Below, one piece after another: positions 2,916 to 9,030 of a stretch of 39,668 nucleotides of DNA. How positions within the stretch are numbered: position 1 is the stretch's first letter; every line of letters starts with the position of its first letter. Below the pieces are notes generated by a model. The model saw only the letters and a list, made by a program, of their open reading frames with translations. It had not been told where the DNA came from and made no database searches. Origin of the DNA: Ectothiorhodospiraceae bacterium (lineage in GTDB: Bacteria > Pseudomonadota > Gammaproteobacteria > Nitrococcales > Aquisalimonadaceae); NCBI GenBank assembly GCA_007117515.1, contig SKGQ01000155.1:1-39668 (forward strand). The letters are read 5' to 3'. The position numbers and the translations under genes were made by a program.

Positions 2916-2959
2916 CCTTGTCTAATATTTGACAAGGAAATGGCCGCTGATGGTATAAG
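2916..2959 (+). promoter_or_regulatory. Putative promoter with overlapping 22-bp palindromic operator-like site
   Basis: CCTTGTCTAATATTTGACAAGG (2916-2937) pairs in 10 of 11 arm positions; TTGACA (2929-2934) and TATAAG (2954-2959) with a 19-nt spacer. Confidence 0.5.
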
Positions 2960-2980
2960 AGAGCTTCAGACATGCAGGAT

Positions 2981-3022
2981 GCCCCAGGATGGTGCGTTGC
3001 AATAAAGTTTCCGCACCGGGGC
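2981..3022 (+). promoter_or_regulatory. Leader hairpin upstream of MoxR-family gene
   Basis: GCCCC (2981-2985) and GGTGCG (2991-2996) pair with the contiguous CGCACCGGGGC (3012-3022), leaving AGGAT bulged. Confidence 0.4.
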
Positions 3023-3058
3023 CCTGTCATCTTTCATGCATTGGCAGGGTTGGCGACT

Positions 3059-4084
3059 ATGGATGACCGGACCTTCTCCGAACTGGACCGCTGGCGCGAA
3101 GCGGCGCTCGCTCTGGAGGCGGATGTCCGCGGCACCGTGGTCGGCCAGGCTCGTCCAATTCGCCTCTTGCTCATCGCCCTGTTTGCCCGCGGGCACGTGC
3201 TGCTCGAAGGCGATGTGGGTGTGGGCAAGACCACTTTGCTGCGGGCTTTGTCGAAAGGAATCGGTGGCGGTTATCAACGTCTCGAAGGCACCATCGACCT
3301 GTTGCCCCACGATCTGATCTATCACACCTATCTGGATGAAAACGGCCAACCGCGGGTCGATCCGGGTCCGTTGCTCCGGCATGGCGAGGATCTGGCGGTG
3401 TTCTTCTTCAACGAGGTGAACCGGGCCCGTCCCCAGGTGCACTCGCTGCTGCTGCGGGTCATGGAAGAGCGGACGCTGACGGCGTTCAATCGTGAACACC
3501 GGTTTCCGCACCTGCAGGTCTTTGCCGACCGCAACCGGGTGGAAAAAGAAGAGACCTTCGAGCTGCCGTCCGCGGCCCGGGATCGTTTTCTGATGGAGAT
3601 CAGCATCCGGCCGCCGGAATCTGCCGAGGATCGCCGCGCACTCATGTTCGACAGCCGCTTCCATGATGTGGATCGTCTGATCGAGCAGGTTCCGACCGGG
3701 CGGCTGCCCTATGATCAGCTGGCCGCGCTCGCGCCACGGATTCAGGATGCCGTATCGGTCAGTGACACGCTGCAGGACTATGGCTTGCGCCTGTGGCAGG
3801 CGACGCGAGAGCCAGCGGCGGCAGGTGTCGCCCTGGAAAATGTCGATATGGACCGGCTGATGGTTGCCGGTGCCAGTCCTCGTGGCGTCAGCCTGCTGAT
3901 CCGGGCGGCTCGTGTTGCCGCCTGGCTGGCAGGCCGTGACTATGTGTTGCCGGACGATGTGCGCGAGATTTTCCCGGAAGTCATGACCCATCGTCTGTTC
4001 TTCACGCCCGCCTATGAGCGTCGTCGTGATGTTCTTGGGCCGCAGCTCAGCGAGGCGATCCTGCAGAGGGTGCCATCGCCGTGA
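3059..4084 (+). CDS. mxaR: MoxR-family AAA ATPase, MxaR-like (ORF opens at 2972; start at 3059 preferred)
   Basis: Walker A GDVGVGKTT; AVFFFNEVNRARPQVHSLLLRVMEERTLT; FADRNRVEKEETFELPSAARDRFLMEI; first gene of an mxaRSACKL-like order. Confidence 0.82.
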   Translation: MDDRTFSELDRWREAALALEADVRGTVVGQARPIRLLLIALFARGHVLLEGDVGVGKTTLLRALSKGIGGGYQRLEGTIDLLPHDLIYHTYLDENGQPRVDPGPLLRHGEDLAVFFFNEVNRARPQVHSLLLRVMEERTLTAFNREHRFPHLQVFADRNRVEKEETFELPSAARDRFLMEISIRPPESAEDRRALMFDSRFHDVDRLIEQVPTGRLPYDQLAALAPRIQDAVSVSDTLQDYGLRLWQATREPAAAGVALENVDMDRLMVAGASPRGVSLLIRAARVAAWLAGRDYVLPDDVREIFPEVMTHRLFFTPAYERRRDVLGPQLSEAILQRVPSP

Positions 4085-4950
4085 GCGATGCGGGCTGGAC
4101 GGCCGCTGCATCCCGGGAATTCGATTACCGACCGGGATTTCGGCCCCGTGGCCTGATGCCGGGTGCACACAAGGGTCTGGCCGCGGGTGCGGGGCACGAA
4201 CTGCGCGATCGGGTCAGCCTGCTGGAGCATCCGGACCCGCGGCGTCTCGCCCTGCGATCCAGCGTGCAGGATCCCTTCAACCAACTGCACGTGCATGTGT
4301 TCAACCAGCACAGTCGCATTCCGGTGCATGTGATCCTTGACCTGACCGCATCCATGGGCTGCGAGGGGCTGGAGCGGAAGTGGCAGCTGACCCTGGATTT
4401 CGTCGAGGCCCTGGCCTTCTCGGTCTGGCGGTCCGGCGATCAATTCGGCGTGATCAGCGATGTTCCCGCCCATTCCGACCTGCAGCTCCACGCCACCCGC
4501 AGTGAGTCACTGGTCAGTGCCTGCATCGCCGCCTTACGTGATCATTCCCCGGTGGCGATCACTGAACCGGACTGGTTGTCACTGGCGGAAGGGGTGCCGG
4601 CAGCGCCCGGCATGGTCTTTCTGGTTTCCGACTTTCATGGCGCGGATGCGTCGCTGGAGGCAGGGCTCGCCTCGCTGACCACGCTGCACGACGTGGTGCC
4701 GGTGGTGGTCTGGGATCCCGCCGAGGATCTGCCTCAGCGGCGGGGTGGATTCCTGCTCACCCGGGATGCCGAGAGCGGCGTCGAGCGCCACATCTGGCTG
4801 CGACCCGGCTTGAGGAAGCGCCTCAAGGCCGCCGCCGATGAACGCCGTGCCGCCCTGGCCGTGCTGTTCCGCAGCTTCGGTCTGGAACCCTTGTTTCTCG
4901 GTCAACAGGTCGATCCCGATCGCCTCAATGCCTACTTCGCGGAACGCTGA
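4081..4950 (+). CDS. mxaS: DUF58-domain protein, MxaS-like
   Basis: Overlaps the MoxR stop by 4 nt; DUF58-like FDYRPGFRPRGLMPGAHKG and VILDLTASMG MIDAS-like motif. Confidence 0.8.
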   Translation: MSDAGWTAAASREFDYRPGFRPRGLMPGAHKGLAAGAGHELRDRVSLLEHPDPRRLALRSSVQDPFNQLHVHVFNQHSRIPVHVILDLTASMGCEGLERKWQLTLDFVEALAFSVWRSGDQFGVISDVPAHSDLQLHATRSESLVSACIAALRDHSPVAITEPDWLSLAEGVPAAPGMVFLVSDFHGADASLEAGLASLTTLHDVVPVVVWDPAEDLPQRRGGFLLTRDAESGVERHIWLRPGLRKRLKAAADERRAALAVLFRSFGLEPLFLGQQVDPDRLNAYFAER

Positions 4951-4953
4951 ATC

Positions 4954-5916
4954 ATGTTGCTGCAACGCCTGATTGTCCTGGCCTGCCTGTCAGTGGCGTC
5001 GACCACAACGGCCGCTGTCGCCGCCACTGACCAGGTCGTGTCGCTGGGCTGGACCGAGCAACCGCGGGTGGACGGCGCAGGCGTCACGCTGGAGGCGGAT
5101 CGCGCCTACGGCCTGGTGGTCGGAGATCGTTTCGAGCATCGCATTCATCTGCGGCCCGAGGCCGGCGTTCAGCTGGAGCCCGGCAGCGTACCGGCGGTGC
5201 AGAATTTCCCGTACGGCCTGGAGCGCCAGCGCGTTCAGGTGCTGACCCACTCCGGTGGCGAGGAACCGCATTACGAGATCCGGATTGGCTATCAGATCTT
5301 CGATGCGCCGGAACAGCCCAGGGTCCACACGGTGCCGGAGTTCGAATTGCGGCTGACGGATGGCAACGGCGGCGAGTCAGTCGGCGTGCCGATTCCGGAG
5401 TGGCCCTTCGTCGTCACGCCGCTGATCGGCGGTGCCATTGACCGGACGCCGGGCGAGGGACGGATGTTGCCGGCGATCGCGCCGGAGCCGATGGATACCG
5501 TGACCCCCAGGCGCGGTCTGGTCCTGACTGCGAGTGGCGGCGTGGCGCTCGCATTCCTGGTCTGGGGGCTGCCCATCCTGCGCCATGGTCGCCAACGCAG
5601 TGCCTTTGTGGGCGCGCTGAGCGATCTTCGGCGGCTGCGTCGTGAACAGCCTTCGGATGCCACGGCGAGGGCCGTCCGCCTGGTGCATGGCGCCTTGAAC
5701 CGCTGCGCTGGCGAGACCGTGTTCCTGGGTGGCCTGCCGACCCTGCTGGATCGGCATCCCTGGCTCCGTCCGGCGCAGGCGGAACTGGAGGAATTCTTCG
5801 AGCTGTCCGCCGAGGCTTTCTACAGCGACGGCGCAGGGCCCGCGGATGAGCAGCGTACATTGCAGGAACTGGAGAAGCTGCTGCGACGGTGCCGGCAGCT
5901 GGAGCGGCGACGGTGA
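4954..5916 (+). CDS. mxaA: MxaA-like periplasmic/membrane protein
   Basis: Signal peptide, periplasmic beta-rich region and a central TM segment (GLVLTASGGVALAFLVWGLPIL); position between mxaS- and mxaC-like genes. Confidence 0.65.
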   Translation: MLLQRLIVLACLSVASTTTAAVAATDQVVSLGWTEQPRVDGAGVTLEADRAYGLVVGDRFEHRIHLRPEAGVQLEPGSVPAVQNFPYGLERQRVQVLTHSGGEEPHYEIRIGYQIFDAPEQPRVHTVPEFELRLTDGNGGESVGVPIPEWPFVVTPLIGGAIDRTPGEGRMLPAIAPEPMDTVTPRRGLVLTASGGVALAFLVWGLPILRHGRQRSAFVGALSDLRRLRREQPSDATARAVRLVHGALNRCAGETVFLGGLPTLLDRHPWLRPAQAELEEFFELSAEAFYSDGAGPADEQRTLQELEKLLRRCRQLERRR

Positions 5917-6878
5917 CACAGCTCGGCCTGGATCAGTGGTGGCCGTTAGCGCTGCTGCCGCTCCTGCTGTTGCCGTTCCTGCGCTCCGGGCAGGATCGCG
6001 TGCTCTACCCCTGGCTTGGCCTGCTGCCGGTGGATCGACTTTCGCGCCTCTCCGACTGGCTGATTCGCGGGCTGGCGGCCCTGGCCATGGCCGCCCTGAT
6101 CATTGCCCTGACCGGTTTGCATCTGCCGGAGGAGATTGAAGAACGCACCACGGAGGGCGTTCAGGTCATCCTGGTCCTGGATCGCAGCCGAAGCATGAAT
6201 GACAACTTCGAGTCCGACTCTTCCGTGAGTCGCAGTGACAAGGCTCGGGAACTGATGCAGGAACTGGTCGAGCGGCGGCCTGATTTTCTTTATGGAGTGA
6301 TCGGCTTCTCCACCGGTCCGTTGCGCGCGCTGAAACCGACCAGCAGCGGCGAAGCGGTGATGGCCGCCGTCCGTCCGGCGACCAGCTCGGCGCTGGCGCT
6401 GACCGAGGTGGCCGGACCCCTGGTCCAGGCGCTGGACAGTTTTCACGGCCGGCCCGGTGAGTCGGAGCGCGTGATCCTGCTGGTTTCCGATGGCGAGCTC
6501 GGGGTAGATGGCCAGCATGCGGTGCGCCTCCGACTGTGGACCCGGGATGCCGGCGTCCGGCTGCACTGGCTGCGGTTCCCCTCGCCGTCGGATGATGTGG
6601 TTGGTCGTCCCAGCGGCTGGGAGAGCCTGCGTGATGCAGGCATCCCGTTTCCTGACGTGCTGGCGGCGCTCGAGGTGCCGACGGTGGAGATTTCCGCCAA
6701 TGCCGATGACGCGATGGACGCGCTCGTGGCGAGTCTGGATGCACTGGAGAGCGGGCCCGTGAGTTACCAGCATGTGGTGGCGCGTCGTGATCTCGATCGA
6801 CCGCTCTACGGCTTCGCCGCATTCTTCCTGTTGGCCCTGGCCGGGCTGCGCAGCATGGAGCTTGAACGATGGGCGTAA
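5889..6878 (+). CDS. mxaC: VWA-domain membrane protein, MxaC-like
   Basis: VILVLDRSRSMNDNF MIDAS motif, flanking TM helices (N-terminal WPLALLPLLLLPFL; C-terminal YGFAAFFLLALAGL). Confidence 0.75.
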   Translation: MPAAGAATVTQLGLDQWWPLALLPLLLLPFLRSGQDRVLYPWLGLLPVDRLSRLSDWLIRGLAALAMAALIIALTGLHLPEEIEERTTEGVQVILVLDRSRSMNDNFESDSSVSRSDKARELMQELVERRPDFLYGVIGFSTGPLRALKPTSSGEAVMAAVRPATSSALALTEVAGPLVQALDSFHGRPGESERVILLVSDGELGVDGQHAVRLRLWTRDAGVRLHWLRFPSPSDDVVGRPSGWESLRDAGIPFPDVLAALEVPTVEISANADDAMDALVASLDALESGPVSYQHVVARRDLDRPLYGFAAFFLLALAGLRSMELERWA

Positions 6879-7429
6879 GGTTTCGGGCAATGCAGATGGT
6901 GCTGGCCCTGGTGGTGCTGGCGCTGGCCGTCGGCGCCATTCACTACGCCCGGGCCCTGCATCAGGCCAGCACCTATAATGCGGCGCTGGTGGCCAACGAG
7001 CCCGACGCCATCGCCTGGGACGCGCGGCCGGAGTTGCTGCAGGTCAAGGCTTACGGTCTGTTGCAGGCCGGTCGCATCGACGAGGCGATCACCGCGTATC
7101 GGCGGCTCGAGGAAGTGGCGCCGGATGGACAACAGGCGGAAGTGCTCTACAACCTTGGCGCCACCCACTTTGCCCTCGCTCGTGAACTCTACGACCAGCC
7201 GCGGACCAATGTGGCGCCGGTCATCCAGCAGTCGCGGATCGCCTTCATGCGCGCCCTGCGCAGCGACAGCACGTTGTATTCGGCGAAGTACAACCTGGAG
7301 TACATCGGCCTGCCCCGGGTGGATGCGCCGGGCGAGACGGAGGGTGCAACCGATGATGTCACCGATCCGGAGCAGGGCGGCACCCACCGCTGGCAGCTGA
7401 TGCAGGACTACCCGGAGGGCATGCCATGA
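6869..7429 (+). CDS. mxaK: MxaK-like TPR-type membrane-anchored protein
   Basis: N-terminal TM (MVLALVVLALAVGAIHYA), TPR-like AYGLLQAGRIDEAITAYRRLEEVAPDGQQAEVLYNLGATHFALA; lies between two VWA genes. Confidence 0.65.
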   Translation: MGVRFRAMQMVLALVVLALAVGAIHYARALHQASTYNAALVANEPDAIAWDARPELLQVKAYGLLQAGRIDEAITAYRRLEEVAPDGQQAEVLYNLGATHFALARELYDQPRTNVAPVIQQSRIAFMRALRSDSTLYSAKYNLEYIGLPRVDAPGETEGATDDVTDPEQGGTHRWQLMQDYPEGMP

Positions 7430-8289
7430 TCCGCGGTCGCCTGCGGCTGTTCGGTCTGCTCGCCGCCTGCGTCCTGGCCCTGCTGGCGTTCCTGGGGCCG
7501 ACCGCCTCCGGGGAGCGCGCGGTGCATCAGTATCTGTTCGTGGTCGATGTGACCCGCAGCATGACCGTGACCGACTACCTGGTGAACGGCGAGCCCGTGA
7601 GCCGGCTGGAACTGACCCGTGAGGCCCTGAGGCAGGTCCTGCGGGCCCTGCCCTGCGATTCGCGGGTCGGCATCGGTCTGTTTTCCGGTTGGCAGACGGG
7701 CATCCTGCTGGAGCCGGTGGAGGTGTGTGCCCATCGCCAGGAACTGGGCCAGCTGGTCGAGGATCTGGACTGGCGCCTGGGCTGGGTGCCGCAGAGCAAT
7801 GTCCAGCGCGCCCTGCGGCACGGCATGCTGCAGATCGGCCGCATGGAGCAGCAACCCAGTCTGGTGTTCATGACCGACGGTGACGAGGCGCCATCCCCGC
7901 TGCGATCTGGCTGGAGTGGCTCCGCGCCGCCGGAGCTCGCGAGCGAGGTGATCCTGGTCGGCACGGGCGCGGAAGAGCCGTCCAACGTGCCGCGCCTGGA
8001 CCAGCGGGATGAGGTGGTCGGCTTCCTGTCACTGCCCTCCGGTGCGCCGGCGGTGTCCGGCCTTGATCAGAGTCATCTGCAGGAGCTGGCCGAACCGTCA
8101 GGGTTTCGCTACCACCTGCTGCGCGATGTGGAAGGTCTGGTCCGGGAACTCACCGCGCCAGAGCGCGCGGCCATGCTGCCCGGGCGATACAGCCTCTCGC
8201 CATGGCTGGCGTCAGCAGCCCTCATGCTGATTCTGGTGTTGCATCTGCCTGGTCTTTCGAGATTTTCGCGGTCGCCATCGGGCAAATAA
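7426..8289 (+). CDS. mxaL: VWA-domain membrane protein, MxaL-like
   Basis: YLFVVDVTRSMTVTDY MIDAS motif, TM segments at both ends; overlaps the mxaK-like stop by 4 nt. Confidence 0.72.
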   Translation: MIRGRLRLFGLLAACVLALLAFLGPTASGERAVHQYLFVVDVTRSMTVTDYLVNGEPVSRLELTREALRQVLRALPCDSRVGIGLFSGWQTGILLEPVEVCAHRQELGQLVEDLDWRLGWVPQSNVQRALRHGMLQIGRMEQQPSLVFMTDGDEAPSPLRSGWSGSAPPELASEVILVGTGAEEPSNVPRLDQRDEVVGFLSLPSGAPAVSGLDQSHLQELAEPSGFRYHLLRDVEGLVRELTAPERAAMLPGRYSLSPWLASAALMLILVLHLPGLSRFSRSPSGK

Positions 8290-8301: not shown

Positions 8302-8345
8302 CCATGGCCACGAGGGGTCCGGCCCGCGTGGCTGGTTTTTCTTTG
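8302..8345 (+). terminator. Rho-independent terminator after mxaL-like gene
   Basis: CCATGGCCACG...CGTGGCTGG stem followed by TTTTTCTTTGTCTT. Confidence 0.65.
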
Positions 8346-8361
8346 TCTTGAGGAATTGCAA

Positions 8362-9030
8362 ATGTGGGGTAGGTGCGCAGGCCTCGCCCTGGCCGCTGTT
8401 GTGGTGTCGTCCGGTGTTCACGCTTCTGGTCAGTACGTGGTGCAGGACGCGGATATCGCCGATCCGCGTTCCTGCGACATGGAGCTCTGGCACAGCGATT
8501 TCGAGGATGCCAACTTCCTCAATCTCGCCTGCCGCGGCACGGCACCGTTGCAGTTGCTTGGTGAAGTGGAGATGCCGCGGGGCAGTGAGCGGGAGGCCTA
8601 CCGGCTTGAGGGCAAGGCGCTGGGTCGTGAACTCGCGACCGATGGCTACGGGCTCGGACTTTTCGTCGCCGCCGGTTACGACAGCGACAGCCGGAAATGG
8701 GAAGAGGGCGAAGTGTTCGGCATGTTGACGCTGGAGCCCGTGGCCGATCGTCTGCTGGTGCACCTCAATCCGGGCCTTGTCTACAGCCGTGAGGACAACC
8801 GCTGGAGTCCGTTCTGGGGGATCGGCAGCGAGTTGGCACTGTTCGGTCCGGTGGAACTGGCGGCTGAAGTGTTCGGTGTCGACAATGACGCACCGACGCT
8901 CCACGGCGCCGTTCGGTTTTTACTGTTCGACGAACAGGTGGAACTGGACATCGGCTACTTCGAGGAAACGGAGTCCGGTGGCAGTGGTGGTTTTGCGGCC
9001 GGGGTCGGCTTCCAGGCGTTCCGGTTCTGA
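8362..9030 (+). CDS. Predicted outer-membrane beta-barrel protein, uncharacterised
   Basis: GAGGAA RBS-like sequence before ATG 8362; signal peptide; alternating beta pattern; C-terminal aromatic (FQAFRF). Confidence 0.6.
   Translation: MWGRCAGLALAAVVVSSGVHASGQYVVQDADIADPRSCDMELWHSDFEDANFLNLACRGTAPLQLLGEVEMPRGSEREAYRLEGKALGRELATDGYGLGLFVAAGYDSDSRKWEEGEVFGMLTLEPVADRLLVHLNPGLVYSREDNRWSPFWGIGSELALFGPVELAAEVFGVDNDAPTLHGAVRFLLFDEQVELDIGYFEETESGGSGGFAAGVGFQAFRF

Follow-up and report, generated by a model that had tools for sequence, protein, structure and literature searches.

The genes mxaR, S, A, C, K and L are required for metal insertion into the methanol dehydrogenase MxaFI, as is known from Methylobacterium genetics. 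Which enzyme does such an operon serve when no methanol dehydrogenase gene stands beside it? The question is raised by positions 2972-8289 of contig SKGQ01000155.1 (39,668 nucleotides, hereafter the window) from an Ectothiorhodospiraceae bacterium, whose assembly GCA_007117515.1 comprises 2.40 Mb in 210 contigs and is 97% complete. Six overlapping genes lie there on the + strand in the R-S-A-C-K-L order of the classical mxaFJGIRSACKLD cluster. We propose that they encode a membrane-spanning machine for the maturation of pyrroloquinoline quinone (PQQ) alcohol dehydrogenases, and that its client is an unlinked XoxF and/or an enzyme of the PedH/ExaF type; we would give this reading roughly two chances in three. 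The six genes, with the evidence for each, are as follows (identities are blastp values to annotated mxa clusters).

3059..4084, + strand: mxaR, MoxR-family AAA+ ATPase (the open reading frame opens at 2972); 55-61% to annotated MxaR, in a clade apart from Bat-MoxR (support 100/100)
4081..4950, + strand: mxaS, soluble DUF58 (VWA-like) protein; Pfam PF01882 at E=2.8e-14, 30-38% to MxaS, hydropathy
4954..5916, + strand: mxaA; 25-27% to MxaA, AlphaFold model, hydropathy
5889..6878, + strand: mxaC, membrane-anchored VWA protein; Pfam VWA_2 at E=1.5e-11, 29-33% to MxaC
6869..7429, + strand: mxaK, signal anchor and TPR-like region; about 24-29% to MxaK (E=2e-4 to the Methylocystis protein), weak TPR match, hydropathy
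7426..8289, + strand: mxaL, membrane-anchored VWA protein; 31-34% to MxaL, alignment, hydropathy

Operons of the Bat aerotolerance type (MoxR-DUF58-DUF4381-VWA-VWA/TPR-BatD) share the domain order and the membrane-anchored VWA proteins, and a comparison with them had been set beforehand as the test of the mxaRSACKL assignment made in the first-pass annotation. The references were clusters annotated with mxaF/J/G/I neighbours from Methylobacterium nodulans, Methylocystis iwaonis and Paracoccus methylovorus, and three Bat operons from Legionella, Alloyangia and Pantoea. The outcome was Mxa: the relatives of mxaR, S, A, C, K and L were matched one-to-one with the order kept, just where the annotation had placed them, and each of the six proteins was nearer to its Mxa namesake than to its Bat counterpart. 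MxaR was about 35% identical to Bat-MoxR. The best E value of MxaS was 2e-42 to MxaS versus 0.02 to Bat DUF58; that of MxaC was 1e-17 to 4e-24 to MxaC versus 0.004 to the Bat VWA protein; and that of MxaL was 1e-27 to 1e-34 to MxaL versus 9e-7 to Bat VWA1. MxaA matched its namesakes at 3e-10 to 3e-12 and gave no match to Bat proteins. The sequence match of MxaK was the weakest of the six, and its position supports the naming. To the Bat operons, S, A, C and K gave E values of 0.004 to 0.02 or no match. Pfam and NCBIfam offered no useful Mxa models for A, K and L; from R to L, the Pfam matches were AAA_3/AAA_lid_2, DUF58, none significant for A, VWA_2, TPR and VWA_2.

A generic Bat-type operon only resembling Mxa would account for the general gene order, for the weak match of DUF4381 to MxaA (E=0.01) and for the weak matches of Leptospira BatA/BatB models to C and L, but all six proteins score far higher to Mxa than to any of the three Bat operons and BatD is absent. 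In addition, an IQ-TREE analysis of 43 MoxR sequences split the Mxa and Bat groups by a 100/100 branch, with about 5 changes per column on the separating branches, and placed the window MxaR in the Mxa group. The Bat reading is thus refuted by these comparisons, and we give it almost no weight. Judged from its sequences, the locus is a true but divergent, unlinked mxaRSACKL operon.

The operon shares with the mxaFJGIRSACKLD clusters of Methylobacterium, Methylocystis and Paracoccus the six genes, their order and strand, the overlapping frames and the domains. Unlike in those clusters, there is no mxaFJGI upstream and no mxaD downstream: as the first-pass annotation had noted, tblastn with annotated MxaF, J, G, I and D found none of them in the 39.7-kb window. 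MxaI was also absent from the whole source genome at the search cut-off, and in our trees the window operon sits on a deep separate branch common only to Methylonatrum. Methylonatrum kenyense AMT 1, the nearest named relative and a member of the same genus, carries its operon at the same locus, between cbiX and a block of outer-membrane-protein, rpiA and ilvA genes, with identities to the window of 90% for R, 71% for S, 49% for A, 70% for C, 69% for K and 60% for L. A possible objection would have been a close relative with mxaFJGI intact upstream of the operon, which was not seen here; the Methylonatrum operon stands alone in a genome that lacks MxaI and encodes both a XoxF and a PedH/ExaF-type enzyme.

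What, then, could be the client? The source genome encodes only two PQQ alcohol dehydrogenases above the family cut-off, and both read WDYDG at the active site where three MxaF references read WDYAG. The second active-site Asp, as in XoxF and PedH, is the accepted mark of lanthanide use. The first enzyme is a XoxF, followed by a four-Cys-type cytochrome (a XoxG relative) and a MoxJ-like binding protein (a XoxJ relative); its gene is about 2.8 kb from fae, of which the genome has two copies. The second is of the PedH/ExaF type, and its neighbours, a PedF cytochrome, a SoxYZ-like carrier and a SoxH-like hydrolase, resemble those in ped/exa clusters. The first-pass annotation had left the client open among an unlinked MxaF, XoxF, another PQQ enzyme and a new one. 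Because MxaI is absent and both enzymes carry the lanthanide Asp, with no PQQ alcohol dehydrogenase of the MxaF type present, an unlinked MxaF is unlikely, and XoxF and/or the PedH/ExaF-type enzyme is therefore left as the likely client. The operon lies on contig C104, xoxF on C60 and the PedH-type gene on C82, so that linkage between the operon and xoxF is not seen in this genome. PqqE is partial at a contig edge here and whole in M. kenyense. The two fae genes and XoxF suggest from sequence that the source organism is a methylotroph; this agrees with Methylonatrum, which a title cited in PMC8877833 describes as methylotrophic. Directly behind xoxJ in the source genome is a gene for an exported-looking protein of 229 residues with no Pfam or NCBIfam match (L007 11108-11797).

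Operons of this kind are not confined to Methylonatrum. When GTDB genomes were scanned with an MxaR alignment and the best 80 loci were taken, most carried RSACKL without mxaFJGI within the fetched flank. Among 50 genomes with such an orphan operon, MxaI was encoded elsewhere in 14 and found nowhere in 36, and 49 encoded a PQQ alcohol dehydrogenase (44 strong matches, 5 weaker or split; 1 without any). The enzyme was present in 35 of the 36 MxaI-less genomes, and in each of the 17 for which the best enzyme was retrieved, the motif was WD[YF]DG. Across 274 genomes sampled evenly from the class, MxaR occurred in 14 and a PQQ alcohol dehydrogenase in 48; the latter was found in 13 of the 14 genomes with MxaR versus 35 of the 260 without it (Fisher p=4e-10, an optimistic value as the species are related), and the sole MxaR genome lacking the enzyme is 64% complete. 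The orphan mxaRSACKL operon is thus common and follows PQQ enzymes rather than MxaFI alone. Orphan copies were also seen on Caballeronia plasmids (L011 9091-14294; L182 12046-17114), and that of Lep1P3 adjoins heavy-metal efflux genes and integrases.

RSACKL without mxaFI has previously been reported for the XoxF-only Methylotenera mobilis JLW8 and M. versatilis 301 (PMC4109929), and partial RSACKL sets for Sphaerotilus with XoxF5 (PMC13300288). As in those bacteria, the operon here occurs without mxaFI where the methanol dehydrogenase is a XoxF, but the lineage is another one (Gammaproteobacteria, genus Methylonatrum), there is a single copy, and it forms a separate RSACKL branch. Since orphan RSACKL in XoxF-only bacteria is already published, the window operon is not new in kind; it is a deeply branching addition to it.

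In other bacteria, RSACKL is directly joined to xoxF. In a Hydrocarboniphaga metagenome-assembled genome (L063), xoxF (WDYDG), xoxJ, a cytochrome c gene and then R, S, A, C, K and L follow each other on one strand, with 48 bp between the cytochrome gene and R; by reading of the sequence, the cluster is bounded by an S-formylglutathione-hydrolase-like gene at its 5' end and a glutathione-dependent-formaldehyde-dehydrogenase-like gene at its 3' end. In L099, RSACKL is followed by xoxF, G and J, and in L103 the order is xoxF, a LapD/MoxY-type histidine kinase and regulator, a Sel1 protein, RSACKL, a 642-residue protein and a TonB receptor. A XoxFJG set near an RSACKL copy was also reported for Methylotenera mobilis 13 (PMC4109929). 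Like the window operon, the Hydrocarboniphaga RSACKL occurs in a genome with a lanthanide-type XoxF, and the R tree places the window MxaR near those of L063, L088 and L103 (95/90); there the genes are joined to xoxF, whereas here they form a separate operon on another contig. Two further features were seen at these loci. In Hydrocarboniphaga, a XoxJ-type binding protein is fused to a long ankyrin-repeat domain (L063 7532-9241). Behind mxaL in two related clusters (L103 10989-14285; L088 16058-20300) there are genes for a protein of 642-648 residues without a Pfam match and for a TonB-dependent receptor, which possibly serve metal uptake.

The predicted placement of the six proteins suggests how such a machine could work. 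Hydropathy gave no membrane segment for MxaR and MxaS, N-terminal membrane segments for MxaC, K and L, and a C-terminal one as well for MxaL. MxaA is predicted to have a signal peptide, a periplasmic beta-sandwich, one transmembrane helix and a helical cytoplasmic tail (hydropathy; AlphaFold model with a predicted local distance difference test score of 84, built from an alignment of the window and the relatives' loci with plasmid-record rows left out); a fold search for MxaA returned nothing beyond generic Ig-like sandwiches, with no match at E<=0.001. Motifs of the metal ion-dependent adhesion site (MIDAS) type were found in MxaS (DLTASM), MxaC (DRSRSM) and MxaL (DVTRSM), and are retained in 68-69 of 69 operons. 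By the positive-inside rule, the TPR region of K and the VWA domains of MxaC and MxaL would face the periplasm, with which the two invariant Cys residues of MxaL (77 and 101) fit. The periplasm is where PQQ enzymes fold. The Walker B motif of MxaR is FFFNE, with Asn (residue 147 in the numbering of the ORF) replacing the usual Asp; in the MxaR clade this Asn occurs in all 69 complete operons, a set partly selected by the FFFNE pattern, and in all 12 genomes found by profile (one as LFFNE), which were not so selected.

We suggest that the cytoplasmic ATPase R and its soluble VWA-like partner S would supply the drive, which would be relayed through the membrane proteins A, C and L and the TPR protein K, with the VWA/MIDAS domains of C and L in the periplasm. 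The exported apo-enzyme would thereby be remodelled, and the active-site metal and PQQ would be inserted; either or both of the unlinked enzymes with a lanthanide-type active site would be the client. The client, the metal-insertion step and the contacts between the subunits are what we infer here, and the metal would be a lanthanide or calcium. By analogy, the best model is the MoxR/VWA pair NorQ/NorD, for which ATP-driven remodelling and iron insertion into nitric oxide reductase were reported (PMC13036017, PMC9976466). Both systems combine a MoxR AAA+ protein with a VWA partner, as do other metal-insertion pairs of this class, and metal insertion was shown for NorQD (PMC13036017), but NorQD consists of two cytosolic proteins whereas here there are six, two of the VWA proteins being predicted periplasmic and MxaR having the Walker B Asn.

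Several observations weigh against the proposed maturation role. MxaR is missing from 35 of the 48 class-sample genomes with a PQQ alcohol dehydrogenase, as it is from several relatives in the family that have such enzymes. The same-genus drafts G001 and G003 encode such enzymes without the operon; because rpiA, its neighbour, is missing from both as well, an assembly gap is a likely but not proven cause, and these two drafts are not weighed either way. The affinity to xoxF-linked copies seen in the R tree is not upheld by trees of R+S+C+L, in which the window branch has 0.93 changes per column and an unsettled attachment, and we no longer regard the window operon as sister to those copies. 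A transposon screen for XoxF1 function in Methylorubrum extorquens did not report RSACKL genes (PMC7391723), expression of the whole Methylorubrum mxa cluster drops under lanthanum, for the RSACKL genes by about 20- to 130-fold (log2 -4.3 to -7.0; PMC6414531), and a 2024 review states that XoxF does not need the RSACKL genes (PMC11845868). The Methylorubrum evidence comes from an organism that bears MxaFI, and is silent on the role of the operon where MxaFI is absent.

The same repression by lanthanum, in an organism where the genes belong to the calcium enzyme (PMC6414531), would suit a second reading, in which an mxaFJGI cluster was once present and has been lost. The operon would then be what remains of it, persisting by accident or because of some small calcium-related use, such as supplying calcium to XoxF or the PedH-type enzyme under lanthanide shortage; orphan copies are indeed often found in clades where MxaFI relatives occur as well. 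We consider this unlikely, as decay would not be expected to leave all six frames intact and 49-90% conserved at the same Methylonatrum locus, and the deep branch points to an operon maintained separately for a long time and not to mxaF having been lost recently. Slightly less probable still is an exported client of a new kind that does not use PQQ. The MoxR/VWA class of operons serves many clients, Bat-type relatives adjoin arylsulfatase genes, the Caballeronia plasmid copies have no PQQ enzyme in the flank, and one MxaR genome (G108, with the L055 fragment) shows no PQQ alcohol dehydrogenase; against this stand the counts of 49/50 and 13/14 given above, the exceptions being drafts. We retain XoxF and/or the PedH/ExaF-type enzyme as the likely client. 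The stronger proposal, that one branch within the MxaRSACKL family became, or always was, a dedicated lanthanide-PQQ maturation machine on which these enzymes depend for the insertion of lanthanide (and PQQ), is more tentative, and we hold it at somewhat less than even odds.

The arylsulfatase neighbours were seen on Pantoea and Alloyangia plasmids (L181 4062-12840; L180 3786-13399), beside operons of the form MoxR-DUF58-DUF4381-VWA-VWA-BatD; in Pantoea an anaerobic sulfatase maturase gene is also alongside. Arylsulfatases are another class of exported metal enzymes, and the adjoining Bat-type operons, being alike in architecture, may perhaps do the same job.

The first-pass annotation had also given the operon its own promoter and terminator. 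Two elements bear on this.

2929..2959, + strand: promoter-like TTGACA-N19-TATAAG, from sequence and script, overlapping the inverted repeat TTGTC-N8-GACAA (2918-2935)
8319..8345, + strand: terminator-like hairpin with a T-rich tail, directly behind mxaL

The terminator held up: a hairpin at 8319-8335 is followed by TTTTTCTTTG (RNA fold z = -1.9), and its position behind mxaL, not the number of such sites in the region (4 found versus 2.7 expected), favours this reading. The promoter is less clear. A standard scan with spacers of 16-18 found none, and the element above scores 11/12, which is reached by 0.2% of base-shuffled copies with spacers of 15-20 allowed; a promoter with a non-ideal spacer is plausible. 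MxaR probably starts at the ATG at 3059, since the alignment with Methylonatrum begins only at residue 23, and that with other MxaR proteins at about residue 28-38; position 2972, where the frame opens, probably lies ahead of the true start.

Between cbiX and the operon, the window carries an amidohydrolase of the Xaa-Pro dipeptidase type (1354-2847; NCBIfam match below cut-off), which is missing at the corresponding place in Methylonatrum. Downstream, a conserved protein without a Pfam match (8356-9030; 87% in Methylonatrum) is set apart from the operon by the hairpin and, in Methylonatrum, also by another gene. In Methylonatrum, mxaL is directly followed by a gene whose sequence reads as that of an MgtE-like divalent-metal transporter (L016 4696-6171); this gene is absent from that place in the window.

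Little is understood about how XoxF and PedH-type enzymes acquire lanthanides. A dedicated role of the operon in lanthanide-PQQ maturation, if true, would contradict the prevailing opinion that XoxF does without helpers of this sort. With one RSACKL operon, two lanthanide-type enzymes and no MxaFI, the genus Methylonatrum makes the statement that XoxF is independent of these genes (PMC11845868) directly testable, free of the confusing MxaFI background of Methylorubrum, and at least one isolate, Methylonatrum kenyense AMT 1, exists.

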